Origin: Tistrella mobilis KA081020-065
Lineage (GTDB): Bacteria > Pseudomonadota > Alphaproteobacteria > Tistrellales > Tistrellaceae
Reading direction: 5' to 3'
Length of the DNA stretch: 64,000 nucleotides
Assembly: GCF_000264455.2 (NCBI RefSeq)
Contig: NC_017957.2
Span: 248,001-312,000 of the forward strand
The notes below the pieces were generated by a model. The model searched no databases. It saw nothing but the letters and a program-made list of their open reading frames with translations, and had not been told where the DNA came from. Every line of letters starts with the position of its first letter. The first letter of the stretch is position 1. Both the position numbers and the translations under genes were made by a program. Below, in pieces: positions 8,101 to 29,765 of this stretch.

Positions 8101-8130
8101 TTGTGACTTGGGCAATGATTGTCCTATGAT
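8101..8130 (+). promoter_or_regulatory. Candidate promoter of the MocR gene
   Basis: TTGTGA (8101-8106) and TATGAT (8125-8130) are separated by 18 bp and point toward the MocR gene. The distance to the ATG at 8219 leaves room for the operator at 8173-8200. This is sequence resemblance only. Confidence 0.4.
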
Positions 8131-8172
8131 CCGGGGGACGGACAAGGGACGGTCGGACGGTTCATCACCATG

Positions 8173-8200: not shown

Positions 8201-8218
8201 TTGGCGGACGGCTTCAAT

Positions 8219-9616: not shown

Positions 9617-9674
9617 CAGCGCTCCGGCCTTGTCCGGCCTTGTTCATGACAGTCTGGCAGGGGCTGTCACCGGC

Positions 9675-9737
9675 GTACGGACAATGTCTATATTGGTTCA
9701 GCACGGAAGTTCTCGGGAGAAACGTACCGTGTCTAAG
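9675..9737 (+). pseudogene. Relic of a toxin-antitoxin leader and antitoxin start codon
   Basis: This stretch aligns with the leader of the intact antitoxin at 22843, at roughly 75 percent identity over about 60 bp by eye. Shared parts are the operator-like palindrome GTAnnGACnnnGTCnnTA, the -10-like TATA, TTCAGCAC, a GGGAGA Shine-Dalgarno and a GTG start (9729) followed by TCT AAG, against CCT AAA in the intact copy. Similarity ends abruptly after the third codon, where sequence attributed to an IS5-like element begins. No antitoxin body remains. Confidence 0.6.
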
Positions 9738-9756
9738 TGTCCGTGCGGGACGTTAT

Positions 9757-9858
9757 CTATGATGTCCGGCTCCTTGCGATTCTGCGCATCATGATCCGGA
9801 TCATGGCGAGGCGGAGGAATGTCAGAGCCACCAGATGACGCGAAAATCGCTCTAACTC
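9757..9858 (-). mobile_element. 3' remnant of an IS5-like transposase
   Basis: On the minus strand the frame ending with TAG at 9757-9759 reads LERFSRHLVALTFLRLAMIR and continues with further basic residues (MRRIARS). That resembles the last 30 or so residues of IS5-family transposases, where LAFLRLASIR-like segments are common. The frame is cut off at the 3' end of the AraC gene and no upstream transposase sequence is present. It touches the toxin-antitoxin relic on its other side. A 16-bp perfect palindrome at 9790-9805 lies inside it. The family assignment is from memory of IS5 termini and is tentative. Confidence 0.5.
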
Positions 9859-10898
9859 GACGCGGCGACGATGCGCAGACCGTTCTTGCGATAGTTCGAG
9901 GGTGGCACCCCGGCGACCCGGCGGAAGAACCTTGAGAAGCTGGCCATTTCGGCGAAGCCCAAGCGGTCGCTGATTTCCGACATCGGCAGATCCGTGGTGT
10001 CGAGCAGTTCGCGCGCGCGGCGCAGCCGGACATTGTCGAGCGCCTGACGATAGCTGGTGCCGGTCTCGGCCAGTTTGCGGTGCAGCGAACGTTCCGAGAC
10101 GTTCAGCGCCTGTGCCGCCTCCAAGGCATTCGGAAAAGCGCCGCGAGACTGCATCAGCAACTGATAGACCGATTTCACGATGCCGGCATGCGTCGGGCTG
10201 GTGTCGAGCATGTTCTGGCAGAGCCGGCGATAGTTCTGGGCCAGCGACGGGTTCGCGAGCGGCAGCGGCAGGGCACCGACGCCGTCGGCAAAATGAAAGC
10301 AGCTCCGCGGCGCGCCGTAGACGATATCGGCCTGCCAGCGGTCTTCCAGGCCCATCCAGCCCCTGGGCCGGTCGAGCCGGCTTTCGATCAGGCGAATCGG
10401 CAGATGTGCCTGTCGCATGTCGCGAAAGAAGGTCAGCGCCGAGCCGAGCAGGCGTTCGTGCAGGAATTCCGTCAGCCCGGCGGGCACATAGTCGTCATTG
10501 GCCACGAAGGCGACGGCGATATCGTCCTGTGTCACGATGTCGTATTCGAACAGCGCATATCCCAACCCCTGCATCGCGGCGAAAGTGCACAAGCCCTCGG
10601 TGACATCGCGTGACACCAGCACGGCCAACCCGAGCGGGCCATAGGCGAGCAGGCTGTAGCGCAGGCCGGTCAGGAAGCCGATGCCCGGAATCTGTTGCGT
10701 CGCACGCCAGAACAGCCGCTGAAACGCCAGCTCCTGATAGCCGTTGAGGGTACCCCAGGGGTCGTGCAGGATGTCACGGGCAAGCCCCGCCTCGCTCAGC
10801 AGCGGCACCGGGTCGATGCCGTGTTCGGTCAGCATTCCGGCCATGATCTGAATACTCTGGCTCGGCAGGCGTATGCTCTGGATCAGACCGACCTTCAT
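9852..10898 (-). CDS. AraC-family transcriptional regulator
   Basis: A 348-residue regulator with an N-terminal ligand-sensing region of the Arabinose_bd type (res about 15-200) and a C-terminal double helix-turn-helix: LEAAQALNVSERSLHRKLAE, then MSEISDRLGFAEMASFSRFF and the family close GVPPSNYRK. I chose ATG 10898, preceded by GGAG nine bases away; an in-frame TTG at 10931 is less likely. Related proteins with this domain order often activate catabolic operons for acids or lipids. It is divergent from the Liv/thiolase operon and probably activates it in response to the imported substrate. Confidence 0.87.
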   Translation of the reverse strand: MKVGLIQSIRLPSQSIQIMAGMLTEHGIDPVPLLSEAGLARDILHDPWGTLNGYQELAFQRLFWRATQQIPGIGFLTGLRYSLLAYGPLGLAVLVSRDVTEGLCTFAAMQGLGYALFEYDIVTQDDIAVAFVANDDYVPAGLTEFLHERLLGSALTFFRDMRQAHLPIRLIESRLDRPRGWMGLEDRWQADIVYGAPRSCFHFADGVGALPLPLANPSLAQNYRRLCQNMLDTSPTHAGIVKSVYQLLMQSRGAFPNALEAAQALNVSERSLHRKLAETGTSYRQALDNVRLRRARELLDTTDLPMSEISDRLGFAEMASFSRFFRRVAGVPPSNYRKNGLRIVAASS

Positions 10899-11238
10899 GG
10901 CATGCTCCGACCATGTCACACCGGTGCCCAAGATGACGGACTGGCAGTAAAAGTCAAATTATTGGCATGCCCGAACATTCTCAATCGGGCGGAAGCCCGT
11001 CATCCTGTCTTCTGGGAGACAAGATGTCGGAAGGCTCATCTCGTTGAAAAACGGATGGTTTGACGCACACGGCGCCAGCCGGGAGACCGGGTTGCACGGG
11101 TGACGATCAATTGGCCGAAACTGACAACTCCTATCATGCCTGCGCAGAGATCGACGCGGACGCCCGAGGATGACCCCGGGCGCCGGCTCTCGCTCATGCC
11201 TGGCGGATCGTTCGAGGGTTACATCCCTGGGAGGAAAC
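10899..11238. promoter_or_regulatory. Divergent control region between AraC regulator and Liv/thiolase operon
   Basis: This 340-bp gap holds no gene. Two similar sites occur at 10898-10914 and 10963-10979, sharing TGGCATGC then CCGA and CAT, in the same orientation and 65 bp apart, which would suit AraC-type binding to direct repeats. Possible promoter elements are TTGACT near 10950 on the minus strand and TTGGCC followed by TATCAT on the plus strand, both with imperfect spacing. A good Shine-Dalgarno (GGGAGGAA) ends the region before the binding-protein gene. Confidence 0.4.
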
Positions 11239-12420
11239 ATGAAACGTCGAGACTTTCTGCGCATGGCCGGTGCGGCGGCTCTTGCGAGCACACTGCCTGT
11301 GCCGATGCTGCGCGCCAAGACGATGGACGAGTTCCATATCGCCGCCATTCTCGCCTTTTCGGGGGCCTATGGTCTGATCGGCAACGACATGCGCAAAGGC
11401 GCCGAACTGGCCGTTGCGCAGCGCGGCGGCAAGGTGCTGGGCAAACCCATCCGCTTCACCTGGGAGGATGACGAAACCAAGCCGCAGCCGGCGGTGCAGA
11501 AGGCCAGCCGCCTGTTGGCGGAAGGCGCGCAGATGATGTTCGGCGCGGTCGGCTCGGCCTCGACATTGGCGCTGCAAAGCCTGTCGACCCAGCGCAAGGT
11601 GCCCCATCTCGTCACCATCTCGGCCGACGACGCGATCACCAAGCCGGGCGGCGCGCCCTATTCCTTCCGCACGTCGAATACGCTCGGCATGGAAATCAAG
11701 ATGACGATGGAGTTCGTCAAGTCGCGCGGGCTGAAGAAGATCTATGCGGTGACCGCCGACTATCAGGCGACGCGTACCGGCTTTGAGCAGTTCGCCGAGA
11801 TGGCCAAGGCCGCCGGTGTCGAGATCGTCGGCAACGACTATGCGCCGCTGGGCAATCGCGACTTCTCGGTGATCATCGACAAGATGGCGCGATCCGACGC
11901 GGACGGCATCGCGGTCATGGCCACCGGCAATGACGGGATCACCTTCGTCAAGCAGGCCGGCCAGGTCGCATTGGGCAAGGACAAGGTGATCTTCGGCCCC
12001 GTGTTGCAGGACGATGTCTTTGCCGCCGCGACCGGGCCCGCCGCGCTGGGCGTGAATTCCGGCGTGCGCTATCACTACAGCCTCGACAACCCGGCGAACA
12101 AGGCCTTCGTCGAGGCCTATCGCGACGCGTATGGCGTGTTTCCGTCGAGCTTCGCGGGTGAGGCCTATGACGGGCTGCGCTGGTGGCTGGACGTGGTGGA
12201 GCAGACCGACAGCTGGGATGCCGATGCCTGGGTCAAGGCCTTCGCGAACAGCGTCTATGAGACCTCGATCGAGGGCCGCAAGGAGATGCGCGCCTGCGAT
12301 CATCAGGCGTCGCAGGTCGGGCTCTGGGGCGAGGTGGTCAAGGGCGAGGCGCCGATGCCGGAACTGACCATGAAGATCACCGAAATCTTCCCGGCGGACC
12401 GTCTGTTCGACGCCTGTTGA
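11239..12420 (+). CDS. Liv-type ABC transporter substrate-binding protein
   Basis: A 393-residue periplasmic binding protein of the branched-chain amino acid/amide (type I, LivK-like) family. It begins with a twin-arginine-like signal (MKRRDFLRMAGAAALA) and a likely cut after PMLRA. The mature part opens with FHIAAILAFSGAYGLIGNDM, as in the Peripla_BP_6 family, and has GAVGSASTLA and FAGEAYDGLR segments. ATG 11239 is preceded by GGGAGGAA. It is first in a ten-gene operon with both permeases, both ATPases and CoA-thioester enzymes, so the ligand is probably an organic acid rather than an amino acid. Confidence 0.9.
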   Translation: MKRRDFLRMAGAAALASTLPVPMLRAKTMDEFHIAAILAFSGAYGLIGNDMRKGAELAVAQRGGKVLGKPIRFTWEDDETKPQPAVQKASRLLAEGAQMMFGAVGSASTLALQSLSTQRKVPHLVTISADDAITKPGGAPYSFRTSNTLGMEIKMTMEFVKSRGLKKIYAVTADYQATRTGFEQFAEMAKAAGVEIVGNDYAPLGNRDFSVIIDKMARSDADGIAVMATGNDGITFVKQAGQVALGKDKVIFGPVLQDDVFAAATGPAALGVNSGVRYHYSLDNPANKAFVEAYRDAYGVFPSSFAGEAYDGLRWWLDVVEQTDSWDADAWVKAFANSVYETSIEGRKEMRACDHQASQVGLWGEVVKGEAPMPELTMKITEIFPADRLFDAC

Positions 12421-12506
12421 ACGGATGGGCGCATCTGTACGGCGGCGGACTCAAGGTCCGTCGCCTGCCGGCTGTTTCGGGCCGGCTGTTTCGGGATGGT
12501 GCGGAT

Positions 12507-13364
12507 ATGTCCACGATCATTATCGGGTTGAGCCTGAGCTTTCTTCTGTTTCTGCTGTCGGCGGGGCTGACGCTGATCTTCGGCATGCTGGGCGTGATCA
12601 ACTTCGCCCATGGCGCGCTGTACATGCTGGGCGCCTATGCCAGCTTTCAGATCGTCCAGACCACCGGATCGTTCTGGCTGGGGCTGCTGATCGCGCCGGT
12701 GGTTGTCGCGGGGTTGGGCGCGCTGATCGAGATGTCGACGCTCAAGCGGGTCTATTCCCGCGACCACATCTTCCAATTGTTGCTGACCTTCGGCCTGATC
12801 CTGGTGATCGACGACGCGACCAAGCTGATCTGGGGCCTGGACTACAAGCAGGTGCCGGCGCCCGATCTGCTGTCGGTGCCGGTCGCGCTGTTCGGCAGCC
12901 AGATCCCGGCCTACCGGCTGTTCGTCATCGTCTTCGGCGCCGTGGTGTCGCTGGGGCTGTTCCTTCTGCTGGACCGCAGCAAGTGGGGCATGATCATCCG
13001 CGCGGCCAGCGCCGACCCCGACATGGCGCGCACACTGGGCATCGACGTGAACCGGGTTCGCACCGGCGTCTTCGCGCTCGGATCCTATCTCGCGGCGCTT
13101 GGGGGGGTGATCACAGCACCTCTGGTGCCGATCGAGCTGGGCATGGGGTTCAGCGTGATCATCGACTGCTTCGTGGTCGTCATCATCGGCGGGCTGGGTA
13201 ATATCCGGGGCGCGATCTTTGCCTCGCTGCTGCTGGGGATGACCCGGGCCGCCGGCTATACCTATGCCACCGAATGGGTCGAACTTCTGACCTTCGCTCT
13301 GCTGATCGGAACGCTGATGTTCCGCCCCGCGGGCCTGTTCAGCTATAAGGGGCGCGCGGCATGA
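12507..13364 (+). CDS. Liv-type ABC transporter permease (LivH family)
   Basis: A 285-residue inner-membrane permease with about eight helices. The family pattern is clear: GLTLIFGMLGVINFAHGALYMLGAY near the N-terminus and GGLGNIRGAIFASLLLG near the C-terminus. I chose ATG 12507, which places the first helix directly after the start; the frame is open upstream to 12417 but that part is not family-like. The stop overlaps the next permease start (ATGA). With the second permease and the two ATPases it forms the importer that feeds the downstream thiolases and ligases. Confidence 0.9.
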   Translation: MSTIIIGLSLSFLLFLLSAGLTLIFGMLGVINFAHGALYMLGAYASFQIVQTTGSFWLGLLIAPVVVAGLGALIEMSTLKRVYSRDHIFQLLLTFGLILVIDDATKLIWGLDYKQVPAPDLLSVPVALFGSQIPAYRLFVIVFGAVVSLGLFLLLDRSKWGMIIRAASADPDMARTLGIDVNRVRTGVFALGSYLAALGGVITAPLVPIELGMGFSVIIDCFVVVIIGGLGNIRGAIFASLLLGMTRAAGYTYATEWVELLTFALLIGTLMFRPAGLFSYKGRAA

Positions 13365-14317
13365 CACGCAGAGCCATGGGCCGCATGCTGATGGCCCTGA
13401 TCATCGCGGCGATGATCGCCGTGCCGTTGGTTCTGCCCGGCGAGCAATGGGTGAACCTGGTCAGCCTGATCCTGATCTGGGCGCTGTTCGCCATCGGCTT
13501 CGATCTGGTCTTCGGCGTGACCGGGATGCTGTCGTTCGGACATGCGGCGCTGCTTGGAACCGGCGGCTATACGATGACCGTGCTGATGCTGAGCTATCAG
13601 GTCAGCTTCCTGCCCGCGCTGGCCGCCGCCGCCCTGGGCGGCGCGCTGCTGGCCTTCGCCATGGGGTTGTTCGCGCTTCGGGTATCGGGCCTGTTCTTCG
13701 CGCTGCTGACGCTGGCGCTGGCGCAGATGATGTACATCCTGGCCTCGAACAAACTGCGCGCCATCACCGGCGGGCTGGACGGGATCGCCGGGGTGCCGCG
13801 ACCCGATCTGTTCGGCATCGATTTCTACGACAACCGCAACTATTACGGCTTCATCGTCGTGGTCTTCCTGATCGGCCTTGCGATCATGGCCCTGCTGCGG
13901 GCCGCGCCCTTCGGCCGGGCGCTGCGGGCGGTGCAGGCCAACGACACCCGCGCGGCACAGCTTGGCTATAACGTGCACGCCCTGCGGCAGCAGGCCTTCG
14001 TGGTGTCGGGCGCCTATGCCGGTGTGTCGGGCGCGCTGCTGGCCTCGCTGATGTTCTATATCAGCCCGCAGATGCTGCATTGGAGCACGTCCGGCGACGT
14101 GCTGATCATGACCGTTCTGGGTGGCAAGGGCACTCTGCTGGGGCCGATCCTGGGTGTTGCGGTATTCGAGCTGCTGAAGGAGGAACTGAGCCAGGCCACG
14201 CAATACTGGTACGGCATCCTGGGGGTGATCTTCATCCTGGCGACGATCTTCCTGCGCAATGGCATCGCCGGGCTGTTCGACGGCGCCCGCGACCACGACG
14301 AGGGGGGCGCGCCATGA
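13361..14317 (+). CDS. Liv-type ABC transporter permease (LivM family)
   Basis: A 318-residue inner-membrane permease and partner of the preceding LivH-like protein. Family signatures include IWALFAIGFDLVFGVTGMLSFG, then HAALLGTGGY, the GRALRAVQANDTRAAQLGYN cytoplasmic loop that contacts the ATPases, and GGKGTLLGPILGVAVFELL. It is coupled to its neighbours by 4-bp ATGA overlaps at both ends, so the five transport genes are read as one unit. Confidence 0.9.
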   Translation: MTRRAMGRMLMALIIAAMIAVPLVLPGEQWVNLVSLILIWALFAIGFDLVFGVTGMLSFGHAALLGTGGYTMTVLMLSYQVSFLPALAAAALGGALLAFAMGLFALRVSGLFFALLTLALAQMMYILASNKLRAITGGLDGIAGVPRPDLFGIDFYDNRNYYGFIVVVFLIGLAIMALLRAAPFGRALRAVQANDTRAAQLGYNVHALRQQAFVVSGAYAGVSGALLASLMFYISPQMLHWSTSGDVLIMTVLGGKGTLLGPILGVAVFELLKEELSQATQYWYGILGVIFILATIFLRNGIAGLFDGARDHDEGGAP

Positions 14318-15063
14318 CCGGGGGGGCGCTGAGCTGCGAGAATATCCAGGTGTCCTTCGGCGGGCTGAAGGCGGTCAACGACGTCACGTATGATTTCGAG
14401 CCGGGGCGGCTGTACGGGCTGATCGGGCCGAACGGCGCGGGCAAGACCACGCTGATGAACGCGCTCTCGGGCCATGCCGCCTTGAGCGGCGGACGTGTCC
14501 GGCTCGACGGCCGGGACGTGACCCACCTGTCGGTGCATCGGCGCACGCGCAGCGGGCTGGGGCGCAGTTTCCAGATCACCAAGATCTTCGCGGGGATGTC
14601 GGTGCTGGAAAACCTTCAGATCGCGGCCTTTGCCCATCGCTATCGGTTGCAGCCCTTCTGGCTGCCGGCCAGCCGTTTTGCGGCGGTGCGTCAACAGGCC
14701 GAACGGGTGCTGGAAGAGGTGGGGCTGACTGCGCTGGCGCATCGGCCGGCCGAATATCTGTCGCATGGCGACCAGCGCGCGCTGGAAGTGGGCCTGTCGC
14801 TGTTGAGCGAGCCGCGGGTGCTGCTGCTGGACGAACCGCTGGCGGGGGTTGGGCATGATCAGCTCGACCGGGCGATCGACCTGATCAGGCAGATCGTGAA
14901 GGGCCGCACGGTGCTGCTGATCGAGCACAACATGGATGTGGTGATGCAGGTCTCGGACGAGATCGTCGTGATGGTGCAGGGGCAGTTGCTGGCCTCGGGC
15001 AGCCCCGGGGATATCCGGGCCAATGCGGCGGTGCGGGCGGCTTATCTGGGAGACGAGGCATGA
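14314..15063 (+). CDS. Liv-type ABC transporter ATPase (LivG family)
   Basis: A 249-residue cytoplasmic ATPase. Walker A is GPNGAGKTT (about residue 40), the Q loop lies in GRSFQITKIF, Walker B is VLLLDEPLAG, and the switch histidine is in LIEHNMDVV. The ABC signature reads LSHGDQR; the usual glycine-rich form is altered but LivG proteins vary here (LAYGQQR is common). The start overlaps the permease stop and the stop overlaps the second ATPase start, both as ATGA. It powers import together with the next gene. Confidence 0.9.
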   Translation: MTGGALSCENIQVSFGGLKAVNDVTYDFEPGRLYGLIGPNGAGKTTLMNALSGHAALSGGRVRLDGRDVTHLSVHRRTRSGLGRSFQITKIFAGMSVLENLQIAAFAHRYRLQPFWLPASRFAAVRQQAERVLEEVGLTALAHRPAEYLSHGDQRALEVGLSLLSEPRVLLLDEPLAGVGHDQLDRAIDLIRQIVKGRTVLLIEHNMDVVMQVSDEIVVMVQGQLLASGSPGDIRANAAVRAAYLGDEA

Positions 15064-15761
15064 CGCTGCTGGCACTGGAAGACTGCGATGTCTTCTATGG
15101 CAAGGCGCAGGCCCTGCACCGGGTGTCGCTGGAGATCGGGCCGGGCGAGGTGGTGTCGCTGATTGGCCGCAACGGCGCGGGCAAGAGCACCATCCTGAAA
15201 ACCATGATCGGCCTCAACCGCGCGACCGGAGGGCGGCGGCTGTGGAAGGGCGGCGACGTGACCGCGCTGCGCCCGGACCAGCTCGGCCGGTTGGGCATCG
15301 CCTATGTGCCCGAGGACCGGCGGATCTTCTCGAATCTGTCGGTGGACGAGAACCTGCGCATCGCCACGGTGATGGGCCGGAAGGGCGGCTGGGACGCGGC
15401 CCGGGTCCACAAGCTGTTTCCGGTCCTGCGTGAGCGGGCCACCCAGCCCGGCGACACGCTGTCGGGCGGCGAGCAGCAGATGCTCGCCATCGCGCGCGGG
15501 CTGTTGACCAACCCCGAGGTGCTGCTGCTGGACGAGCCCACCGAAGGGCTGGCGCCGCTGATCGTCGATCAACTGGTCGAGGCGATGCGGCTGATCAACG
15601 CCGAGGGCATGGCGCTGTTGCTGGTTGAACAGAACCTGCGTGTGCCGATGAAGCTGGCCCACCGGCAATATGTGATCGATCACGGCGCCATCCGGTGGAC
15701 CGGGACGACGGCCGAGTTGCAGGCCAGCCGGGACGAGATCGAAAAACTGATCAGCCTTTGA
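15060..15761 (+). CDS. Liv-type ABC transporter ATPase (LivF family)
   Basis: A 233-residue cytoplasmic ATPase with canonical motifs: Walker A GRNGAGKST, signature LSGGEQQMLAIARGL, Walker B VLLLDEPTEGLAP, and switch histidine region replaced by LLVEQNLRV, where glutamine is normal for LivF. It starts inside the LivG stop codon (ATGA) and ends 9 bp before the first thiolase gene. It is the fifth and last transport gene, and the tight spacing to the catabolic genes links transport with CoA-dependent metabolism. Confidence 0.9.
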   Translation: MTLLALEDCDVFYGKAQALHRVSLEIGPGEVVSLIGRNGAGKSTILKTMIGLNRATGGRRLWKGGDVTALRPDQLGRLGIAYVPEDRRIFSNLSVDENLRIATVMGRKGGWDAARVHKLFPVLRERATQPGDTLSGGEQQMLAIARGLLTNPEVLLLDEPTEGLAPLIVDQLVEAMRLINAEGMALLLVEQNLRVPMKLAHRQYVIDHGAIRWTGTTAELQASRDEIEKLISL

Positions 15762-15770
15762 GGGAACGAT

Positions 15771-17003
15771 ATGGAAAAGACGTATATCGTCGGGATCGGG
15801 ATGTCGCATTTCGGGCGTTTCCTGAACCGCGGCCTGGCCGATCTTACCGGTGAGGCGGTGACCGAGGCGCTGGCCGATAGCGGTCTTGCGGCCCACGACA
15901 TCGGGGCAGCCTATTTCGCCAACGCCTCGCAAGGCGTGGTCGAGGGCCAGCATCTTGTGCGTGGCCAGCTTGCCCTGCGCAGGCTGGGGTTTCAGAACCT
16001 GTCGATCACCAATGTCGAGAATGCCTGCGCCAGCGGCAGCACCGCGCTGAACGCGGCGGTCGCCTATATCGCCTCAGGGCAAGGTGATGTGGCGCTGGCC
16101 GTGGGCGCCGACAAGATGAACGCCCCCGATCGTGCCCTGTCCTTCGCCATCTTCGACGGTGCCTGGGATGTCGGCGATGTCGAGGGCCAGATCGCGCGGC
16201 TGGAGCGGCTGGGGCAGGCGATGCAGCCGCCGGAACGCGCGGTGGAGCCGGGCCAGCGCAGCGTGTTCATGGATGTCTATGCCGCACTCGCGCGGTTCCA
16301 TATGGGCACCTTCGGCACCACCCAGGCGGATATCGCGCAGGTCGCGGCCAAGAACCACAGCCATTCGGTGCTGAACCCCAAGGCGCAGTACCGCCATGCG
16401 ATGACGGCGGACGAGGTGCTGGCCGCGCGCGAGATTTCCTGGCCGCTGACCCTGCCGATGTGCGCGCCGATCAGCGATGGCGCGGCGGCGGCGATCGTGG
16501 TGTCCGAGAAGAAGGCGCGGCGGATGGGTCTGACCCGGGCGGTGCGGATCGCGGCCAGCGTGCAGGCCGCCGGATCGGACCGGGCAGCTGAGGATCTGGA
16601 CCGCCATATCTGCCGGCGGGCGGTGGATCGGGCCTATGAGCTGTCGGGGATCGGGCCGGAGGATGTCTCGGTGGTCGAGGTGCATGACGCGACCGCCTTC
16701 GCCGAGTTGCAACAGGCCGAGCTTCTGCGGCTTTGCCCGATGGGCGAGGGCGGGCGGCTCGCCACTTCGGGCGCGACCACGCTTGGGGGGCGGATCCCGA
16801 TCAACGTGTCGGGCGGGCTTGAGTCGCGTGGCCATCCGATCGGGGCGACCGGGCTGGCGCAGATCTATGAACTGGTCACGCAGCTGCGGGGCGAGGCCGG
16901 GCCGCGCCAGGTGGAGGGCGCGCGCGTCGGGCTCGCCGAGAACGGCGGCGGCTTCCACGGATACGAGGAAGCCGTGGCCGTGATCACACTGTTGCAGCGA
17001 TAG
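15771..17003 (+). CDS. SCP-x/lipid-transfer-type thiolase (first of two)
   Basis: A 410-residue thiolase-fold protein. The nucleophilic cysteine sits in ENACASGST (Cys86). The C-terminal region has VVEVHDATAFAEL and SRGHPIGATGLAQ, so the key histidines are present, but the usual SCP-x HDC motif is HDA here. Members of this group cleave or condense 3-oxoacyl-CoA, and some relatives (Ltp type) act as retro-aldolases with a DUF35 partner; no DUF35 gene is adjacent. The substrate is unknown. It lies 9 bp after the transporter genes and 9 bp before an acyl-CoA ligase. Sequence differs strongly from the second thiolase, so they are not recent duplicates. Confidence 0.82.
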   Translation: MEKTYIVGIGMSHFGRFLNRGLADLTGEAVTEALADSGLAAHDIGAAYFANASQGVVEGQHLVRGQLALRRLGFQNLSITNVENACASGSTALNAAVAYIASGQGDVALAVGADKMNAPDRALSFAIFDGAWDVGDVEGQIARLERLGQAMQPPERAVEPGQRSVFMDVYAALARFHMGTFGTTQADIAQVAAKNHSHSVLNPKAQYRHAMTADEVLAAREISWPLTLPMCAPISDGAAAAIVVSEKKARRMGLTRAVRIAASVQAAGSDRAAEDLDRHICRRAVDRAYELSGIGPEDVSVVEVHDATAFAELQQAELLRLCPMGEGGRLATSGATTLGGRIPINVSGGLESRGHPIGATGLAQIYELVTQLRGEAGPRQVEGARVGLAENGGGFHGYEEAVAVITLLQR

Positions 17004-17012
17004 GAGGGCCTC

Positions 17013-18563
17013 ATGCGCCTGATCGACTTTTTCGACCGGGGTGCCGCGATCAACCCTGACGGCGTCTGTCTGGAGGATGACGAGGTCAGCCGAAGCTATC
17101 GCTGCGTGCAGACGCGCAGCTTTCGCTTTGCAAATGCCATCGCGGCCGAGGGGTTCGGCCCCGGGCGGATGGCCGGCATCTACAGCCCGAACTGTGTGAG
17201 CGGTTTCGAGGCGATGCTCGGCCTGTTCCGCTCCGGCACCGCCTGGGTGCCGGTGAACGCCAAGAACGGCGTCGACGAGAACGCCTATATCCTCGATCAC
17301 AACGACGTCGAAATTCTGTTCTATCACAGCAGCTTCGAAGCTGCCCTGGACCGGATCAAGGCGCTGTGCCCGAAGATCCGGCGGTTCATCTGCCTCGATC
17401 GGGCGGGGTCGGATGGCCCCTGGCTGGAAGACTGGCTGGCCGATGCCGCCGACACCGATCCGGATGTGACGCTGGGGCCGGACGATCTGGTCGGCATTCT
17501 CTCGTCGGGCGGCACCACGGGGCGCCCCAAGGGGATCATGCTGACCCAGCTCAACTGGGGCACGATGATCGCCAATTTCTATGCCGGTGTGGATCCCGGC
17601 CCCGCGCCGGTGCACCTGCTGGTCACGCCGATGACCCATGCCGCCGGGGTGATGGCGATCGTTCTGATGGCCGCCGGCGCGCGCAACATCATCCTGCCGG
17701 GGTTCGACGCGGCACGGGTGCTCGACACGATCGCGCGCGAGGAGGTCACCCATCTTTTCCTGCCGCCGACGGCTATCTACATGCTGCTCTCGGAGCCGGG
17801 GATCGAGGATCGCGGCTTTCCGTCGCTGCGCGGCTTCATCTATGCGGCGGCGCCGATGGCCGTCGACAAGCTGCGGCAATGCCTGAAGATCTTCGGCCCG
17901 GTGATGATGCAGAGCTTCGGCCAGGCCGAATCGCCGATGTTCTGCACGCTGTTGATGCCCGAGGATCATCTGGTGCTGGGCGATCCGGCGCGCGAACACC
18001 GCCTCGCCAGCTGCGGACGGCCGACATTGCTGACGCCGGTGGCGATCATGGGCGATGACGGCAAGTTGATGCCCAGGGGCGAGCGCGGTGAGATCGTGGT
18101 ACGCGGCAATCTGGTGATGAAGGGGTATTACAAGAACCCCGAGGCGACGGCCGATGTCTCGCAGCATGGCTGGCATCATACCGGCGACGTCGGATATCTC
18201 GACGCGGACGGCTATCTCTACATCGTCGATCGCAAGAAGGACATGATCATCTCGGGCGGGTTCAACGTCTATCCGTCGGAGGTCGAGCAGGTGATCTGGG
18301 CGCATCCCGCCGTGCAGGACTGCGCGGTGATCGGCGTGCCCGACGAGAAATGGGGTGAGGCGGTCAAGGCTGTGATCGAACTCAAGCCTGGTGCCCGGCT
18401 CGACCCCGACGAGATCATCCGCATCTGCAAGCAGCAACTCGGCAGCGTGAAGGCACCGAAATCGGTGGCGATCTGGGACGAGCTGCCGCGCAGTCCCGTG
18501 GGCAAGGTGCGCAAGAAGGACATCCGGGATGTCTTCTGGCAAGGCCAGACGCGGAAGATCTGA
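17013..18563 (+). CDS. Class I adenylate-forming acyl-CoA ligase (first of two)
   Basis: A 516-residue AMP-dependent synthetase/ligase that would activate a carboxylic acid to its CoA thioester through an acyl-adenylate. Motifs in order: the P loop SSGGTTGRPKG (about residues 164-174), QSFGQAE in the acyl pocket region, HTGDVGYLDADGYLYI, the hinge DRKKDMIISGGFNVYPSEVE, and the C-terminal lysine in SPVGKVRKKDI. Length is normal for the family. Substrate cannot be read from the sequence. The Shine-Dalgarno AGGAGG lies just before ATG 17013. Its place between two thiolase genes suggests it activates the imported acid. Confidence 0.85.
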   Translation: MRLIDFFDRGAAINPDGVCLEDDEVSRSYRCVQTRSFRFANAIAAEGFGPGRMAGIYSPNCVSGFEAMLGLFRSGTAWVPVNAKNGVDENAYILDHNDVEILFYHSSFEAALDRIKALCPKIRRFICLDRAGSDGPWLEDWLADAADTDPDVTLGPDDLVGILSSGGTTGRPKGIMLTQLNWGTMIANFYAGVDPGPAPVHLLVTPMTHAAGVMAIVLMAAGARNIILPGFDAARVLDTIAREEVTHLFLPPTAIYMLLSEPGIEDRGFPSLRGFIYAAAPMAVDKLRQCLKIFGPVMMQSFGQAESPMFCTLLMPEDHLVLGDPAREHRLASCGRPTLLTPVAIMGDDGKLMPRGERGEIVVRGNLVMKGYYKNPEATADVSQHGWHHTGDVGYLDADGYLYIVDRKKDMIISGGFNVYPSEVEQVIWAHPAVQDCAVIGVPDEKWGEAVKAVIELKPGARLDPDEIIRICKQQLGSVKAPKSVAIWDELPRSPVGKVRKKDIRDVFWQGQTRKI

Positions 18564-18572
18564 GGGTGCGAC

Positions 18573-20081
18573 ATGAATATCTCCGAGCTTCTGGCGCAAT
18601 CCGCCCGAACCTTCCACGACCGGCCCGCCGTCTGCCTGGGCGATGCCACCGTCCTTACCTATGCCGGGCTGCGTGATCGCGGCGCGGCGCTGGCCGCCGG
18701 TCTCCGCGCGCGCGGTGTGCCCCGGGGCGGGCGTGTCGTCATCTACATGGGCAATCGGCCGGAATACTTCGAGATGCTGTTCGGCATCTGGGCGGCGGGT
18801 TGCGTTGCGGTGCCGGTCAACGCCAAGCTGCATCCGGCCGAGGTGGACTATGTCCTGTCGAACAGCGGCGCCAGCCTGCTGTTCACCGACAGGGCCGGGG
18901 AGATGGCCGGCTTCGCCGGAACGGTCGCGGTGGATGGCCCGGCCTATGCGGCATTGATGGCCGGGCCGGCGGCCCTGGTTCCGGCGCGGGTCGCGCCGGA
19001 GGATCCCGCCTGGATCTTCTATACCTCCGGCACCACCGGCCGGCCCAAGGGGGCGGTGCTGAGCCACCGCAATCTCTGGGCGATGACGGCAAGTTTTCTC
19101 GCCGATATCGGCCCGGTCACGGAAGGCTCGGCAGCCCTGCATCCGGCGCCGCTGTCGCATGCGGCGGGCCTGTTCGCGCTGCCCTTCGTGCGGCGCGGTG
19201 CCGCCAACGTGGTTCCGGAAAGCGGCGGGTTCGACCCTGACGAACTGGTGGCGCTGCTGCACCGCTTTCCGCGCTCGTCCTTCTTTGCCGCGCCGACGAT
19301 GCTCAATCGCTTCATCGCCTGTCCGGCGCTGGACGCGCGCGCGATCGCCGGTCTCGATCTGATCTTCTGCGGCGGCGCACCGATCTATGTCGAGGATCTG
19401 CGCCAGGCGCTCGGCCTGTTGGGGTCGCGCATCTGGATCGGCTATGGCCAGGGTGAGGTGCCCTGCACGATCAGCTATCTGCCGCCGCATGTTCTGGGGC
19501 TGAACACGCCCGAGAGCTGGCTCGGCTCGGTCGGCATCGCCCGCACCGGTGTGACCGTCCGCGTGGTCGACGACGCCGGCGCCGACTGCGCGCCCGATAT
19601 GCCGGGCGAGGTGATCGTGTCGGGCGACGTGGTGATGACCGGCTATTGGCGGAACCCTGAAGCCACCGCCTCGGCGCTGCGCGACGGATGGCTCCATACC
19701 GGCGATATCGGCAGCCTCGACGCACACGGCGTGCTGACGCTCAAGGACCGGTCGAAGGACGTGATCATCTCGGGCGGATCGAACATCTATCCCCGCGAGG
19801 TCGAGGAGGTGCTGCTGCGTTATCCCGGCGTCAGCGAGGCCAACGTGACCGGCCGGCCGCATGCCGATTGGGGCGAAGAGGTCGTGGCCTTCGTCGTCGC
19901 CGAGGACGGGGTGACCGCCGAGGCGCTGGACCGGTTCTGCCTGGACCATATCGCCCGGTTCAAACGGCCGAAATCCTATCGTTTCGTCCCGTCGCTGCCG
20001 AAGAGCAGCTACGGCAAGATCCTGAAGACCGAACTGCGCCGCATGCTGGTCGAGAGCGAGCCGGCCCCGAAGACGTTTTGA
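18573..20081 (+). CDS. Class I adenylate-forming acyl-CoA ligase (second of two)
   Basis: A 502-residue AMP-dependent ligase of the same superfamily as its upstream neighbour but clearly distinct. It has YTSGTTGRPKGAVLSH (P loop), YGQGEVPCTISYL where the A5 motif is expected, HTGDIGSLDAHG, DRSKDVIISGGSNIYPREVE (hinge), and the catalytic lysine in KSSYGKILKTELR. Two ligases in one operon suggest two acids: perhaps the imported compound and a product released by ring or chain cleavage. It starts 9 bp after the first ligase stops and ends 16 bp before the second thiolase. Confidence 0.85.
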   Translation: MNISELLAQSARTFHDRPAVCLGDATVLTYAGLRDRGAALAAGLRARGVPRGGRVVIYMGNRPEYFEMLFGIWAAGCVAVPVNAKLHPAEVDYVLSNSGASLLFTDRAGEMAGFAGTVAVDGPAYAALMAGPAALVPARVAPEDPAWIFYTSGTTGRPKGAVLSHRNLWAMTASFLADIGPVTEGSAALHPAPLSHAAGLFALPFVRRGAANVVPESGGFDPDELVALLHRFPRSSFFAAPTMLNRFIACPALDARAIAGLDLIFCGGAPIYVEDLRQALGLLGSRIWIGYGQGEVPCTISYLPPHVLGLNTPESWLGSVGIARTGVTVRVVDDAGADCAPDMPGEVIVSGDVVMTGYWRNPEATASALRDGWLHTGDIGSLDAHGVLTLKDRSKDVIISGGSNIYPREVEEVLLRYPGVSEANVTGRPHADWGEEVVAFVVAEDGVTAEALDRFCLDHIARFKRPKSYRFVPSLPKSSYGKILKTELRRMLVESEPAPKTF

Positions 20082-20097
20082 CCCAAGGAGGCGTGAC

Positions 20098-21279
20098 ATG
20101 ACCACACTCATTGCCGGCGTCGGCATGATTCCCTTCGCGAAGCCCGGCGCCTCGGCGCCCTATGATGCCATGGGCGAGGCGGCGATCCGTCTGGCGCTCG
20201 ACGATGCCGGGATCGGCTTCGAGGCCGTGGAGCAGGCCTATGCCGGATATGTCTATGGCGACAGCACCAGCGGCCAGCGGGTGATCTATCGCGTCGGCAT
20301 GACCGGCATTCCCATCGTGAACGTGAACAACAACTGTTCCAGCGGCTCGACCGCGCTGTTCCTGGCGCGGCAGGCGGTGGAAAGCGGCGTGGCCGACTGC
20401 GTGCTGGCGGTGGGGTTCGAACAGATGACGCCGGGCGCGCTCGGCGCGGTGTTCACCGACCGGCCCTCGCCGCTGGGTGAATTCGACGCGGTGACCGATG
20501 CGTTGATCGGCGCGTCGGATCTGCCGATGACGCTGAAATATTTCGGCGGCGCGGGCAAGGCGCATATGGACCGCCATGGCACCCGGCTTGAAACCTTCGC
20601 GGCCATCCGCGCCAAGGCCAGCCGCCACGGCGCGCGCAACCCGCTCTCGGTGTTCCGCCGGGAGATGAGCGTCGAGGAGGTGATGAACGCCCAGACCATC
20701 TGGCCCGGCGTCATGACCCGCCCCATGGCCTGCCCGCCGACCTGCGGCGCCGCGGCGGCGCTGGTGGTGTCTGAAGACTTCGCCCGGCGCAACGGGCTGG
20801 ACGCGACGGTGCGCATCCGGGCGCAGGCGATGACCACCGACCGCCCCGGCAGCTTCGACAGCCGCGACATGATCGAGGTGGTCGGCGCCGATCTGACGCG
20901 CAAGGCGGCGCGGAAGGTCTATGAGGCGGCGGGTATCGGCCCCGAGGATATCGACGTGATCGAACTGCACGACTGTTTCGCCCAGAACGAGCTGATCACC
21001 TATGAGGGGCTGGGCCTTTGCGGAGAGGGCGCGGGCGAGGCATTGGTCATGGACGGCGACAACACCTATGGCGGCCGATATGTCACCAACCCCTCGGGCG
21101 GGCTGCTGTCGAAAGGCCATCCGCTGGGCGCGACGGGCCTGGCCCAGTGCTATGAACTGACGCAGCAATTGCGCGGCCGCGCCGGGGACCGGCAGGTCGA
21201 GGGCGCGCGGCTGGCGTTGCAGCACAATCTGGGGCTCGGCGGCGCGGCGGTCGTGACCCTCTATGAGGCCGGCGCATGA
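20098..21279 (+). CDS. SCP-x-type thiolase (second of two)
   Basis: A 393-residue thiolase that resembles the thiolase half of animal peroxisomal SCP-x, which cleaves branched 3-oxoacyl-CoAs and bile-acid side chains. Landmarks are the nucleophile in NNNCSSGSTALF (Cys80), IELHDCFAQNELITYEGLGL, GDNTYGGRYVTNPSGG, and KGHPLGATGLAQCYEL. All residues expected for thiolysis are present, including HDC and GHP. An AAGGAGG Shine-Dalgarno precedes ATG 20098. Its SCP-x similarity is from memory of the family. It hints that the operon handles a branched, isoprenoid or steroid-like acyl chain; the actual substrate is unproven. Confidence 0.87.
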   Translation: MTTLIAGVGMIPFAKPGASAPYDAMGEAAIRLALDDAGIGFEAVEQAYAGYVYGDSTSGQRVIYRVGMTGIPIVNVNNNCSSGSTALFLARQAVESGVADCVLAVGFEQMTPGALGAVFTDRPSPLGEFDAVTDALIGASDLPMTLKYFGGAGKAHMDRHGTRLETFAAIRAKASRHGARNPLSVFRREMSVEEVMNAQTIWPGVMTRPMACPPTCGAAAALVVSEDFARRNGLDATVRIRAQAMTTDRPGSFDSRDMIEVVGADLTRKAARKVYEAAGIGPEDIDVIELHDCFAQNELITYEGLGLCGEGAGEALVMDGDNTYGGRYVTNPSGGLLSKGHPLGATGLAQCYELTQQLRGRAGDRQVEGARLALQHNLGLGGAAVVTLYEAGA

Positions 21280-21299
21280 TGGCGGGGGGAGGCGGGATC

Positions 21300-22085
21300 A
21301 TGGAATATGGCGTTGCCCTGGTGACGGGGGCCGGCTCAGGGATCGGGCGGGGGGTGGCGATACGGCTGGCCCGGCTTGGCGCCCGGGTCGCCGTCACCGA
21401 TGTTTCCGAGGCCGGCATCGACGAGACCCTGGGTCTGATCGCCGCGGAGGGCGGCAAGGCGATGGGCCAGCGGCTCGACGTCGCCGACGCGGCCTCGGTC
21501 GAGGCGGCCTTCGCCGCCGCCGAGGCCTGGGACAAGCCCGTCGACGTGCTGGTCAACAATGCGGGCATCGCGTCGCTGCATGCGTTCCTCGATTTCCCGA
21601 CCGAGGACTGGACCCGGGTGATGGCGGTGAACGTCACCGGCACTTTGCTTTGCGCGCAACGCGCCGGGCGCGCGATGGTGCGGCAGGGCTATGGCCGGAT
21701 CGTCAACATCGCCTCGGTCAGCGGTATCCGGGCCGGGGTGGGGCGGACGGCCTATGGCACCTCGAAGGCGGCGATGATCGGGCTGACCCGCCAGATGGCG
21801 CTGGAGCTTGGGCCTTACGGGGTCACCGCCAATGCCGTAGCACCCGGCCCGATCGTGACCCCGCTGACGCAGGCGAATTATACCGAAGCGACGGTCGCGG
21901 CGTTTCTGCCGATGATCCCGGCGCGACGCATGGGTCAACCCACGGATATCGCCGCCGCGGTCGCCTATCTCGCCAGTCCCGAAGCCGGCTATGTCAATGG
22001 TGACGTGCTGGTGGTCGATGGCGGCTATGTCGCTGCCGGGGTGAGCCAGACCGGGCATTTGGACATGGCCGGCGGCGGCGGATGA
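21300..22085 (+). CDS. SDR-family NAD(P)-dependent oxidoreductase
   Basis: A 261-residue classical short-chain dehydrogenase/reductase. It has the cofactor motif TGAGSGIGRG, the NNAG motif (VNNAGIAS), the catalytic serine in IASVSGI, YGTSK (Tyr and Lys), and the C-terminal NGDVLVVDGGY. I chose ATG 21300 because a GGAGG Shine-Dalgarno lies seven bases upstream; ATG 21276 overlaps the thiolase stop and would add eight residues. It is last in the Liv/thiolase operon. The likely role is oxidation of a 3-hydroxyacyl-CoA to the 3-oxo form for the thiolases, or of an alcohol group on the substrate. Confidence 0.85.
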   Translation: MEYGVALVTGAGSGIGRGVAIRLARLGARVAVTDVSEAGIDETLGLIAAEGGKAMGQRLDVADAASVEAAFAAAEAWDKPVDVLVNNAGIASLHAFLDFPTEDWTRVMAVNVTGTLLCAQRAGRAMVRQGYGRIVNIASVSGIRAGVGRTAYGTSKAAMIGLTRQMALELGPYGVTANAVAPGPIVTPLTQANYTEATVAAFLPMIPARRMGQPTDIAAAVAYLASPEAGYVNGDVLVVDGGYVAAGVSQTGHLDMAGGGG

Positions 22086-22215
22086 CAAGCGGCCATGCGC
22101 CGCGAACCGCCTGGGGATTTCCTGTGTCCACAGGCGTTCGCGGAGCGGGCGGGGCCGGCGTTACCGCGCCTCCGGATCCTCGACCGGTGCCGCCGGCAAG
22201 CAGGGCCGCCGGGTC
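22086..22215. other. Short non-coding stretch after the Liv/thiolase operon
   Basis: No gene is supported here. A perfect 14-bp hairpin, CCTGTG and CACAGG around two bases near 22119-22132, might mark the operon 3' end, but there is no T tract. Confidence 0.3.
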
Positions 22216-22575
22216 GTGTCGGCTTTCATTGCCACGGCATTCGCCCGGAATGATGCCGGCGCCACCATCCACCTCTTTTTCGGTTTCGAGACGGCCTCTA
22301 AGGAAGCCGTCTTTACGATGAAGCTGGATGCCGAGCTGCCCGCAGCATTCATGGCCGAGGCTGCGGCAGAAGATCGCCCGGCATCTCAGGTCGTTCGCGA
22401 ATTGATGCGCGACTATATCGAACGGCGTCGTCAGAGCCGTGACGACGACACCTATCTGCACCGAAAGGTTGAAGCCGGACGCGCGTCGATACGTGCCGGA
22501 CAAGGTCGGTCCAATGACGAGGTCAAAGCTGATTTCGCGGCGCGTCGGGCGGGGCTGGCAGGGTCTGACGCGTGA
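22216..22575 (+). CDS. Ribbon-helix-helix antitoxin, copy 1 (no native leader)
   Basis: From about 22303 this frame is almost identical to the antitoxin at 22843: about six differences in 270 bp by eye. The RHH part reads AVFTMKLDAELPAAFMAE then DRPASQVVRELMRDYIE. The upstream part is unrelated to the intact copy: the leader, palindrome and GTG start are missing, and the frame runs up to a GTG at 22216. The true start may instead be ATG 22318. Its toxin partner is deleted. It could still be translated and, being nearly identical, might cross-neutralise the intact toxin. Expression is doubtful because the promoter is lost. Confidence 0.6.
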   Translation: MSAFIATAFARNDAGATIHLFFGFETASKEAVFTMKLDAELPAAFMAEAAAEDRPASQVVRELMRDYIERRRQSRDDDTYLHRKVEAGRASIRAGQGRSNDEVKADFAARRAGLAGSDA

Positions 22576-22662
22576 TCGTGCTCTGGTACTACCCCCCCCC
22601 CCGCCCTGCACACCTCTCGCCAATGGCCCCCGCTGATCACCCCACCCCGAACCGATCGATGA
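22572..22662 (+). pseudogene. Toxin copy 1 with internal deletion
   Basis: The frame begins like the intact toxin (GTG ATC GTG CTC TGG, overlapping the antitoxin stop). It then jumps through an 11-base C run (22583-22593) to CACACCTCTCGCCAATGG, which matches the last part of the intact toxin, out of frame. About 215 bp of toxin are missing. The C tract sits exactly at the deletion joint. The product cannot be a working toxin. Confidence 0.8.
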
Positions 22663-22766
22663 TCGTCACCCCGGTGCCGGGGAAGCGGTCCATCATGGTC
22701 AGCAGGCGGGTGCCTTCGTCCAGGTCGACGCGGGCGCCGATCAGCTTTTCCGGCTGAAGCCGGCCG
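22648..22766 (-). pseudogene. 119-bp fragment of the alcohol dehydrogenase 3' end (copy 1)
   Basis: This matches the last part of the intact zinc alcohol dehydrogenase gene (start of match at 28721) with a few substitutions. It follows the broken toxin in the same arrangement as fragment 2 follows the intact toxin. It breaks off 23 bp before the leader of antitoxin copy 2. Confidence 0.85.
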
Positions 22767-22789
22767 ACGTCGAATGCGATGGCACCAGG

Positions 22790-22835
22790 GTACTGACAAC
22801 GTCTATACTTTTTCAGCACAGAGATCCTGGGGGAG
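22790..22835 (+). promoter_or_regulatory. Leader of the intact toxin-antitoxin pair: operator, -10 and Shine-Dalgarno
   Basis: An imperfect 19-bp palindrome of form GTAnnGACnnnGTCnnTAC spans 22790-22808 and overlaps a -10-like TATACT (22804-22809), the usual place for RHH antitoxin autorepression. No good -35 is seen. A strong Shine-Dalgarno (GGGGGAG, 22829-22835) precedes GTG 22843 by seven bases. The same palindrome survives in the relic at 9675-9693 with one change in the outer arm. Confidence 0.55.
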
Positions 22836-22842
22836 ACGTTCC

Positions 22843-23124
22843 GTGCCTAAAGAAGCCGTCTTTACGATGAAGCTGGATGCCGAGCTGCGCGCAGCATTCA
22901 TGGCCGAGGCTGCGGCAGAAGATCGCCCGGCATCTCAGGTCGTTCGCGAATTGATGCGCGGCTATATCGAACAACGTCGTCAGAGCCGTGACTACGACAC
23001 CTATCTGCACCGAAAGGTTGAAGCCGGACGCGCGTCGATACGTGCCGGACAAGGTCGGCCCAATGACGAGGTCAAAGCTGATTTCGCGGCGCGTCGGGCG
23101 GGGCTGGCAGGGTCTGACGCGTGA
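22843..23124 (+). CDS. Ribbon-helix-helix antitoxin, copy 2 (intact pair)
   Basis: A 93-residue antitoxin. The N-terminal 45 residues form a CopG/ParD-like RHH domain (VFTMKLDAELRAAFMAE, then SQVVRELMRGYIEQRR), which would dimerise on the operator at 22790-22808. The charged C-terminal half (HRKVEAGRASIRAGQ, then DEVKADFAARRAGL) would wrap the toxin. I chose GTG 22843 because of the GGGGGAG Shine-Dalgarno and because the leader relic at 9675 shares this GTG. The stop overlaps the toxin start (GTGA), giving coupled translation. Confidence 0.82.
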   Translation: MPKEAVFTMKLDAELRAAFMAEAAAEDRPASQVVRELMRGYIEQRRQSRDYDTYLHRKVEAGRASIRAGQGRPNDEVKADFAARRAGLAGSDA

Positions 23125-23423
23125 TCGTGCTCTGGACGCCCGAGGCGGAGCAGGACCGGGCATCGATCTGGGAGTACATCGCGACGGGCGACCCGCATGC
23201 CGCCCGACGTCTCGACGAACTGTTCGACCGTGCAGCAGACCACCTGACAGCATATCCCGAGATGGGCAAAGCCGGCATCATTCCCGGCACGCGTGAGTTG
23301 ATCCCACATGAAAGTTACCGCCTGATCTACGAGATCCACGGCGGCGCCGTCTGGATCATCGCCCTGGTGCACACCTCTCGCCAATGGCCCCCGTTGATCA
23401 CCCCGCCCCGAACCGATCGATGA
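23121..23423 (+). CDS. ParE/RelE-superfamily toxin
   Basis: A 100-residue toxin of the ParE/RelE superfamily. Typical parts are the opening [47 protein letters not shown], and [15 protein letters not shown] at the end. Relatives either poison gyrase or cut mRNA on ribosomes; which applies here cannot be told. It begins with GTG inside the antitoxin stop. The last residues (about RTDR) and the stop codon come from the antisense strand of the adjoining dehydrogenase fragment, so the original C-terminus may have been replaced just beyond the family core. Confidence 0.82.
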
Positions 23424-23755
23424 TCGTCACGCCGGTGCCGGGGAAGCGGTCCATCATGGTCAGCAGGCGGGTGCCTTCGTCCAGATCGACGCGGGCGCCG
23501 ATCAGCCTTTCCGGCTGAAGCCGGCCGCGGCGGATCATCTCCAGCATCGCCGGGTAGCGATGGGCCTGCATGCCGTGGCTGCCCAGCAGTTCCAGCTCCC
23601 AGGCGATGACGCGGTCCATGGGGATGGCGGGGCGGGCCTGGTCGGCGAGCAGCAGGCCGATCTGGACATGCCGTCCCCGGCGGCGGAGCGACAGCACGGA
23701 ATTCACGCAGGTCATCGGGTGGCCCAGCGCGTCGATCGACAGCTGCACGCCGCCG
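23409..23755 (-). pseudogene. 347-bp fragment of the alcohol dehydrogenase 3' end (copy 2)
   Basis: This is a copy of 28721-29067, the C-terminal third of the intact zinc alcohol dehydrogenase, with one base different by eye (A for G in a CCAGATCG/CCAGGTCG context). Both lie in the same orientation, 5312 bp apart, and flank the histidine kinase gene. The fragment overlaps the toxin 3' end. It has no start and no dehydrogenase N-terminus. Confidence 0.92.
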
Positions 23756-24011: not shown

Positions 24012-28670
<4,659 letters not shown>

Positions 28671-28709
28671 CGGCGCCGATTCCGGCGTCGTCAGCCTGCC
28701 CGGCCTCCG

Positions 28710-29765
<1,056 letters not shown>

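Follow-up and report, generated by a model that had tools for sequence, protein, structure and literature searches.

We analyzed a 64,000-nucleotide stretch of the Tistrella mobilis KA081020-065 genome (contig NC_017957.2, positions 248,001 to 312,000; hereafter, the window), in which a gene for an AraC-family regulator stands divergent to ten intact reading frames on the forward strand (11239 to 22085). These code, in order, for a substrate-binding protein, two permeases, two ATPases, a thiolase (thiolase 1), two acyl-CoA ligases, a second thiolase (thiolase 2), and a short-chain dehydrogenase/reductase (SDR) (Table 1); together with the divergent gene, we count them as a unit of eleven genes. 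Families were assigned with Pfam and NCBIfam profiles, and the host genome measures 6.5 Mb in 5 contigs. The assignments agree with an earlier sequence-only reading of this DNA in all ten genes, their coordinates and families, and in the divergent regulator. The Peripla_BP_6 protein, the two BPD_transp_2 permeases, and the two ATPases all score above the Pfam cut-offs and make up an ATP-binding cassette (ABC) importer of the Liv/HAAT type. The nine gene junctions measure 86, -4, -4, -4, 9, 9, 9, 16, and -4 bases, so the overlaps or gaps of a few bases described in that reading hold for eight junctions but not for the 86 bases 3' of the binding-protein gene. Promoter and terminator scans gave results at chance level. 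As also claimed, the reading frames and their Pfam matches include no acyl-CoA dehydrogenase, enoyl-CoA hydratase (ECH), or DUF35 gene, and hence this is not a complete beta-oxidation operon. The operon appears to be uncharacterized, since no description of it turned up in a literature search that left most subscription papers outside its reach.

Table 1. Features of the eleven-gene unit and of the strain-specific stretch around it, in window coordinates
Feature	Position	Strand	Basis
AraC-family regulator (Arabinose_bd + HTH_18), divergent	9852..10898	-	Pfam; same place in plasmid relatives
Conserved tandem site, two TGGC(A/G) boxes, proposed AraC operator	10942..10967	+	Alignment of three clusters
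Substrate-binding protein (Peripla_BP_6)	11239..12420	+	Pfam, sequence and model matches
LivH-type permease	12507..13364	+	BPD_transp_2
LivM-type permease	13361..14317	+	BPD_transp_2
LivG-type ATPase	14314..15063	+	ABC_tran + BCA_ABC_TP_C
LivF-type ATPase	15060..15761	+	ABC_tran; LivF model 208 bits, cut-off 441
Thiolase 1 (SCP2-thiolase superfamily, HDAT type)	15771..17003	+	Thiolase_C_1; motifs
Ligase 1 (AMP-forming acyl-CoA ligase)	17013..18563	+	AMP-binding
Ligase 2 (AMP-forming acyl-CoA ligase)	18573..20081	+	AMP-binding
Thiolase 2, SCP-x-type (HDCF, GHPLGATG, HNLG)	20098..21279	+	PRK08256; motifs
SDR	21276..22085	+	adh_short_C2; SDR motifs
Stretch absent between flanking genes in G058, a strain of the same species	9618..28720		Flanks (window 7427-9617 and 28721-30502) separated by 14 bases in G058

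A tblastn search of the window proteins against 72,556 plasmid records found thiolase 1 matches in 571 records (12 at 80 to 90% identity, the other 559 below 60%) and binding-protein matches in 25 (12 at 90 to 95%, three at 79%, and ten below 60%). The 12 high-identity records, in which thiolase 1 is at about 90% and the binding protein at 91%, are small Pearl River plasmids of Pseudosulfitobacter pseudonitzschiae, which we counted as one lineage, as we did the three D7-type plasmids. The P. pseudonitzschiae plasmid L031 (NZ_CP086939, 37.7 kb, used whole) carries the AraC gene and the ten genes in the same order as the window. Its ligase 2 gene spans the record start and is broken when the circular NZ_CP086939 is joined, while it is intact in NZ_CP086935; the break may be a strain difference, an assembly fault at the record start, or a joining error. 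The plasmids of P. pseudonitzschiae SMR1, Sulfitobacter sp. D7, and Pseudosulfitobacter sp. DSM 107133 (L123 to L125, near-identical and counted once) carry the AraC unit at 64 to 84% identity. The AraC protein itself occupies the same position in the plasmid relatives, with 77% and 64 to 65% identical amino acids. Between the window and the P. pseudonitzschiae copies, the eleven genes show nonsynonymous divergence (dN) of 0.04 to 0.14 and synonymous divergence (dS) of 0.9 to 1.7, the latter partly saturated, with dN/dS of about 0.04 to 0.11; all eleven are under strong purifying selection. Since gene order and proteins are conserved between genera at such ratios, the arrangement is not due to chance. 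The importer, ligases, thiolases, and SDR thus form a conserved, selected, and mobile unit with its own regulator gene.

Relatives in genome contigs were picked by thiolase 1 (at least 593 pattern stretches and at least 577 relatives, of which the best 80 were kept, with flanks of up to 10 kb and many contigs shorter than that). The binding protein (59 to 71% identical), the four pump genes, and a ligase occur together in 15 of these 80 loci, not counting L067, whose contig ends before the binding-protein gene; thiolase 2 accompanies them in five of the 15 and an SDR of at least 30% identity in seven. In L043, from a Bradyrhizobium metagenome-assembled genome, all ten genes are in order, although the binding protein is cut by the contig end and the SDR is only 38% identical. 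The ten-gene order that the earlier reading had proposed to look for is therefore found in other genomes, on the P. pseudonitzschiae plasmids and in L043, and the linkage of importer with ligase and thiolase extends over alpha- and betaproteobacterial loci. The binding protein is rare, given that it had four matches in 385 alphaproteobacterial genomes (E 1e-60) and three in 398 genomes of the phylum (E 1e-80), both counts including its own genome. In all five foreign genomes, an SCP2-type thiolase and an AMP ligase lie inside the 20 kb around it: thiolase 1 in L145 (46%), thiolase 2 in L146, L158, and L159 (59 to 66%), and both in L144 (genome G341, probably the same genome as L047). Because the kind of thiolase varies, the pump is linked to thiolase chemistry rather than to one particular thiolase. 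A gene of the carboxymuconolactone-decarboxylase (CMD) family adjoins the importer in L146, L158, and L159, which were picked by the binding protein. Gene families in the flanks of the relatives, among them amidase, aminotransferase, FGase, CMD, PhzF, and proline racemase, pointed to no common substrate.

The window copy lies in a strain-specific stretch. Both of its flanks are present at about 95% identity in G058, where the intervening 19.1 kb (with the AraC gene and the operon, fragments of ParDE, additional copies of an alcohol dehydrogenase 3' end, and a sensor kinase) are missing from the site; counted only to the alcohol dehydrogenase piece at 23403-23755 as the junction, the missing DNA spans 9618-23402, or 13.8 kb. 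The unit is also lacking in G001, of the same genus, where left synteny stops at 9605 and the best thiolase 1 match is at 45%. The binding protein had no match in G001 or G058 at E 1e-60. From its occurrence on plasmids and in a strain-specific island, the unit appears to be horizontally mobile. A recent transfer from a Roseobacter plasmid was rejected, because the operon has a GC content of 0.668 against 0.559 in the plasmid copy (part from araC to ligase 1) and dS is near 1. Each copy resembles its own surroundings in GC (flanks of 0.679 to 0.686 in the window, 0.571 for the plasmid), which, together with the dS, indicates that the exchange was not recent: it would be old or from a third source.

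Downstream of the operon, fragments of a ParDE-like toxin-antitoxin pair and of the 3' terminus of the alcohol dehydrogenase gene at 28710 recur within 22298-23755, the extra alcohol dehydrogenase copies lying at 22642-22766 and 23403-23755. Direct repeats of 289 bases (98%) and 160 bases (97%) occur here, and these are probably recombination scars. Still within the stretch absent from G058, 24012-28670 is a frame of 1,552 amino acids resembling a hybrid sensor kinase (with an H-box in its translation), whose best G001 relative is 68% identical in DNA. An intergenic repeat of about 97 bases at 9733-9830 has at least 12 copies at 90 to 92% in G058 and at least three at 87 to 92% in G001, among the best 40 candidates scored per genome.

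The 340 bases between araC and the binding-protein gene correspond to 337 in L031 and 335 in L124, with pairwise identities of 37 to 64%. Within them, all three clusters agree in 20 of the 25 columns of one block, a value equaled in none of 20,000 column permutations; in the window it covers 26 bases with the two boxes 21 bases apart. A degenerate pattern of this tandem site occurs exactly once in the host genome and, among 171 loci, only in the AraC-type clusters (L031 and L123 to L125) and in two loci representing the window region itself (since L123 to L125 are identical at the site, the five AraC-type copies amount to three independent ones). A genome scan allowing up to two mismatches gave 29 places (one exact, one with a single mismatch) against 35 with the reversed control; we therefore give weight to the exact site only. 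We infer that the block is a dedicated AraC operator and that the regulon may comprise just this divergon. Other regulators stand beside sampled relatives, namely GntR/FCD (L056), MarR (L048), and TetR (L044).

The sequence-only reading had described both thiolases as SCP-x-like, which is correct for thiolase 2 but holds for thiolase 1 at the superfamily level only. Thiolase 2 scores 668 bits against PRK08256 (cut-off 436) and aligns nearly full length with the solved SCP2-thiolase type-1 (6hsj, E 1e-132), sharing the HDCF and GHP motifs; in its HNLG motif, HN stands in place of CxG. It differs from SCP-x in that its Pfam matches do not include the SCP2 lipid-transfer domain. Thiolase 1 (motifs HDAT, GHPIGATG, and ENGG; predicted structure with a predicted local distance difference test [pLDDT] score of 69.5) reaches only 306 bits with PRK08256 and falls below every NCBIfam cut-off among the matches listed (25 of 57). 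It shares HDA and GHPIGA with BbsB of the benzoylsuccinyl-CoA thiolase BbsAB but scores 221 bits against the NCBIfam BbsB model (cut-off 750) and has no DUF35 (BbsA-like) partner. The three PF01796 (DUF35) matches in the genome, one of them below the cut-off, each adjoin another thiolase, and we therefore rejected a DUF35-dependent thiolase complex of the BbsAB or Ltp2 type.

Four of the five solved proteins nearest in sequence to the binding protein (4ey3, 4evq, 4f06, 4zpj, and 4evs) come from Rhodopseudomonas palustris. When its AlphaFold model (pLDDT 84.5) was compared with Foldseek's best 1,000 chains, 4maa, whose title names no ligand, came first (Z 43.6), followed by 4evq and 4evs (4-hydroxybenzoate, Z about 42), 4f06, 3i09, 4zpj, 4eyg (vanillic acid), and 4ey3 (p-hydroxybenzoic acid, 41.4). 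The benzoate-related rows among these first eight, none of them first, span Z 41.4 to 42.2, and five of the eight are R. palustris proteins, four with a benzoate-type ligand in the title. Rows naming a bound amino acid (pyroglutamate included) reach 34.1 to 37.9, and a Brucella leucine/isoleucine/valine-binding protein reaches 39. At LivK positions 102, 150, 202, and 226, all 16 orthologues have residues other than the Thr, Tyr, Tyr, and Glu that we take to bind the amino group in LivJ/LivK. The protein is thus not of the LivJ/LivK type, which suggests, as the earlier reading did, an importer for acids other than the ordinary branched-chain amino acids; we rejected transport of the latter in view of these replacements. 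Generic permease annotations in the records would fit an ordinary importer of branched-chain amino acids that happens to precede unrelated lipid genes, an explanation that is barely credible given the same replacements, the short or overlapping gene junctions, and the way pump and ligase/thiolase genes stay together in alpha- and betaproteobacterial loci.

According to the accessible part of a study of R. palustris binding proteins (PMC3223731), these bound other amino acids or aromatic, fatty, or dicarboxylic acids; these ligands support an organic acid, favor an aromatic one by kinship, and leave a dicarboxylic one possible. The benzoate-type binders RPA0668 (HbaE), RPA0985, and their relatives (4evq, 4evs, 4eyg, 4ey3, and 4f06) share fold and family with the window protein and are among its best sequence and model matches. 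They differ from it in that identity is only 25 to 27% and in context, RPA0668 being located between benzoate operons in the same partial source (PMC3223731), while the window protein stands with ligases and SCP2-type thiolases.

A dicarboxylic or fatty acid is the basis of a first alternative, in which the unit would take up and beta-oxidize medium-chain acids of these kinds, with the thiolases shortening the chain and no ring involved. We consider this unlikely, considering that the solved relatives nearest in sequence are mostly benzoate-type binders and that SCP-x-type thiolases differ from the usual straight-chain thiolases. In its favor, two R. palustris binding proteins beside pimFABCDE bind fatty and dicarboxylic acids, as far as the available text of PMC3223731 goes. 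Likewise, the portion of PMC12543098 at hand places in Ralstonia CL21 a predicted ABC importer (RS12600-20, five genes by their tags), a pimeloyl-CoA ligase (RS12625), and a thiolase (RS12575) at neighboring locus numbers, with dicarboxylic-acid phenotypes. This pimelate system and R. palustris RPA3723-3725 beside pimFABCDE resemble the window unit in having importer genes near CoA ligase and beta-oxidation genes; they are set beside it by their descriptions in those partial sources, not by gene homology, and the dicarboxylic link is theirs.

Another comparison is given by the Paracoccus-type clusters exemplified by L032 (Liv genes, a ligase of about 660 amino acids, ECH, thiolase, and acyl-CoA dehydrogenase), which share with the window unit the presence of an importer, a ligase, and a thiolase (about 56% identity with thiolase 1). 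They differ from it in the kind of binding protein and ligase, in including the dehydrogenase and the hydratase, and in the absence of thiolase 2 from the L032 stretch. The ligase type of about 660 amino acids is present in 31 of the 80 loci, L043 among them. There, it stands among the pump genes of a second widespread importer unit, mostly with a thiolase 55 to 59% identical to thiolase 1, and the proteins of this second unit are 83 to 100% alike across many Roseobacter loci. Units for acids that combine importer, ligase, and thiolase are already known, and the window unit is a further member.

The lack of a dehydrogenase and a hydratase led the sequence-only reading to propose an already oxidized substrate, a conclusion that the relatives do not support. 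On the L123 to L125 plasmids, 211 bases 3' of the SDR gene, there follow genes for ECH, a thiolase (55% identical to thiolase 1), an acyl-CoA dehydrogenase, an SDR, a CaiB/BaiF CoA-transferase, and a second Liv pump, after which the D7 stretch (the longest fetched) continues with a ligase and a second binding protein. L043 borders ECH, acyl-CoA dehydrogenase, and a second pump/ligase module; in L048, from Sneathiella, two MaoC-type genes, an SDR, and ECH come after thiolase 2, as does an SDR in L047. In the host genome itself, 38 acyl-CoA dehydrogenase domain matches were counted, all outside the window. With these enzymes adjoining the unit in relatives and dehydrogenases available elsewhere in the genome, their absence from the operon does not show an oxidized substrate; most of the 15 loci, however, have no dehydrogenase/hydratase block within the stretch examined, which weighs against the argument from adjoining enzymes.

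An imported acid that is already 3-hydroxy or 3-oxo, for which ligase, SDR, and thiolase would suffice and the second ligase would re-activate the released acid, is accordingly an alternative to which we give a low probability, against which stand the dehydrogenase, hydratase, or MaoC/ECH genes added in relatives and the 38 matches just mentioned. The gene content of the window copy (ligases, SDR, and thiolases, without dehydrogenase or hydratase) fits it, as do seven loci (L050, L053 to L056, L059, and L063) in which pump, thiolase 1, and ligase are followed by one and the same gene family (seven of seven); the L056 member of this family is the GntR/FCD regulator. It would also match benzoylacetate, which, according to the accessible part of PMC4729919, a ligase activates before "a so far unknown thiolase" cleaves it.

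The SCP-x kinship of thiolase 2 with 6hsj raises a third option, degradation of the side chain of an isoprenoid, sterol, or bile acid, like the peroxisomal system of SCP-x and MFE-2. The L048 neighborhood (thiolase 2 with MaoC/FAS1_DH-like genes, SDR, and ECH) is compatible with it, and in the window, genes for 3-hydroxy-3-methylglutaryl-CoA (HMG-CoA) reductase and a tripartite ATP-independent periplasmic (TRAP) transporter adjoin the unit. That block (3367-9616) comprises the reductase gene (6723-8027), DctP/DctQ/DctM, and a divergent regulator of the GntR-aminotransferase (MocR) type, and presumably is a mevalonate catabolism locus. We rejected it as part of the unit, since G001 has the reductase gene at 98% without the operon and G058 shows the fetched part of the block. 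Moreover, the importer is of the small-acid type by its solved relatives, no steroid genes were seen in the loci, and the two ligases score only 210 and 267 bits against the steroid-24-oyl-CoA synthetase model (cut-off 750 bits). The steroid-like or bile-acid substrates suggested previously thus find no support beyond the thiolase family, and we regard this option as very unlikely.

Conserved gene order and families fit the view, already put forward in the earlier reading, that the unit would serve acid uptake, CoA activation, and thiolytic cleavage. We tentatively propose, with slightly less than even confidence, that it is a mobile unit performing these steps on a carboxylic acid that is most likely aromatic or otherwise ring-bearing. 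The AraC-type regulator would act from the single tandem operator next to its own gene, the periplasmic protein would bind the acid, and the LivHMGF-type pump, whose family is clear, would import it. Ligase 1, ligase 2, or both, as members of the acyl-CoA ligase family, would form the CoA thioester. If the route requires it, acyl-CoA dehydrogenases and hydratases of general function encoded elsewhere in the genome could supply the 3-hydroxyacyl-CoA, which the SDR would oxidize to the 3-oxoacyl-CoA; thiolase 1 and the SCP-x-type thiolase 2 may then release acetyl- or propionyl-CoA from substrates ill suited to ordinary thiolases, and degradation of the ring would proceed elsewhere.

Several observations weigh against an aromatic or ring-bearing substrate delivered by this route. 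At such low identity, kinship with the benzoate binders does not fix the ligand, and in the structure comparison, where rows within Z 1 are tied, proteins that are amino-acid binders by title, without a named ligand, rank high (4maa, 43.6; 3n0w, 41.0; 3td9, 40.6), whereas the 3-hydroxybenzoate binder 4q6w reaches only 35.8 and p-coumarate binders come near 35. All 16 orthologues retain LivK Ser79, which presumably contacts the carboxylate; this is compatible with any carboxylate ligand, including an amino acid. L123 to L125 lack thiolase 1 at its usual place, and the beta-oxidation block on these Roseobacter plasmids includes an importer of its own and may form an independent operon that only happens to adjoin the unit. 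Finally, no ring-cleavage gene was seen linked to the unit, the genome as a whole not having been searched for one.

A more specific version of the ring-bearing proposal, which is speculative and rather improbable, would make thiolase 1 with its partner ligase a thiolase system cleaving aryl 3-oxoacyl-CoAs of the benzoylacetyl-CoA type. The island would then be a compact system, borne on plasmids, for scavenging aryl 3-oxo or 3-hydroxy acids, and would have spread among distant proteobacteria, some of them associated with algae. More generally, genes annotated as amino acid transport and lipid transfer would be joined in one catabolic unit, served by a regulator of its own and a proposed operator. 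The unit is portable, occurring on plasmids and in an island, and Roseobacters isolated together with algae are among its carriers. Identifying the acid would set many automatic annotations right and might provide a thiolase acting on aromatic side chains.

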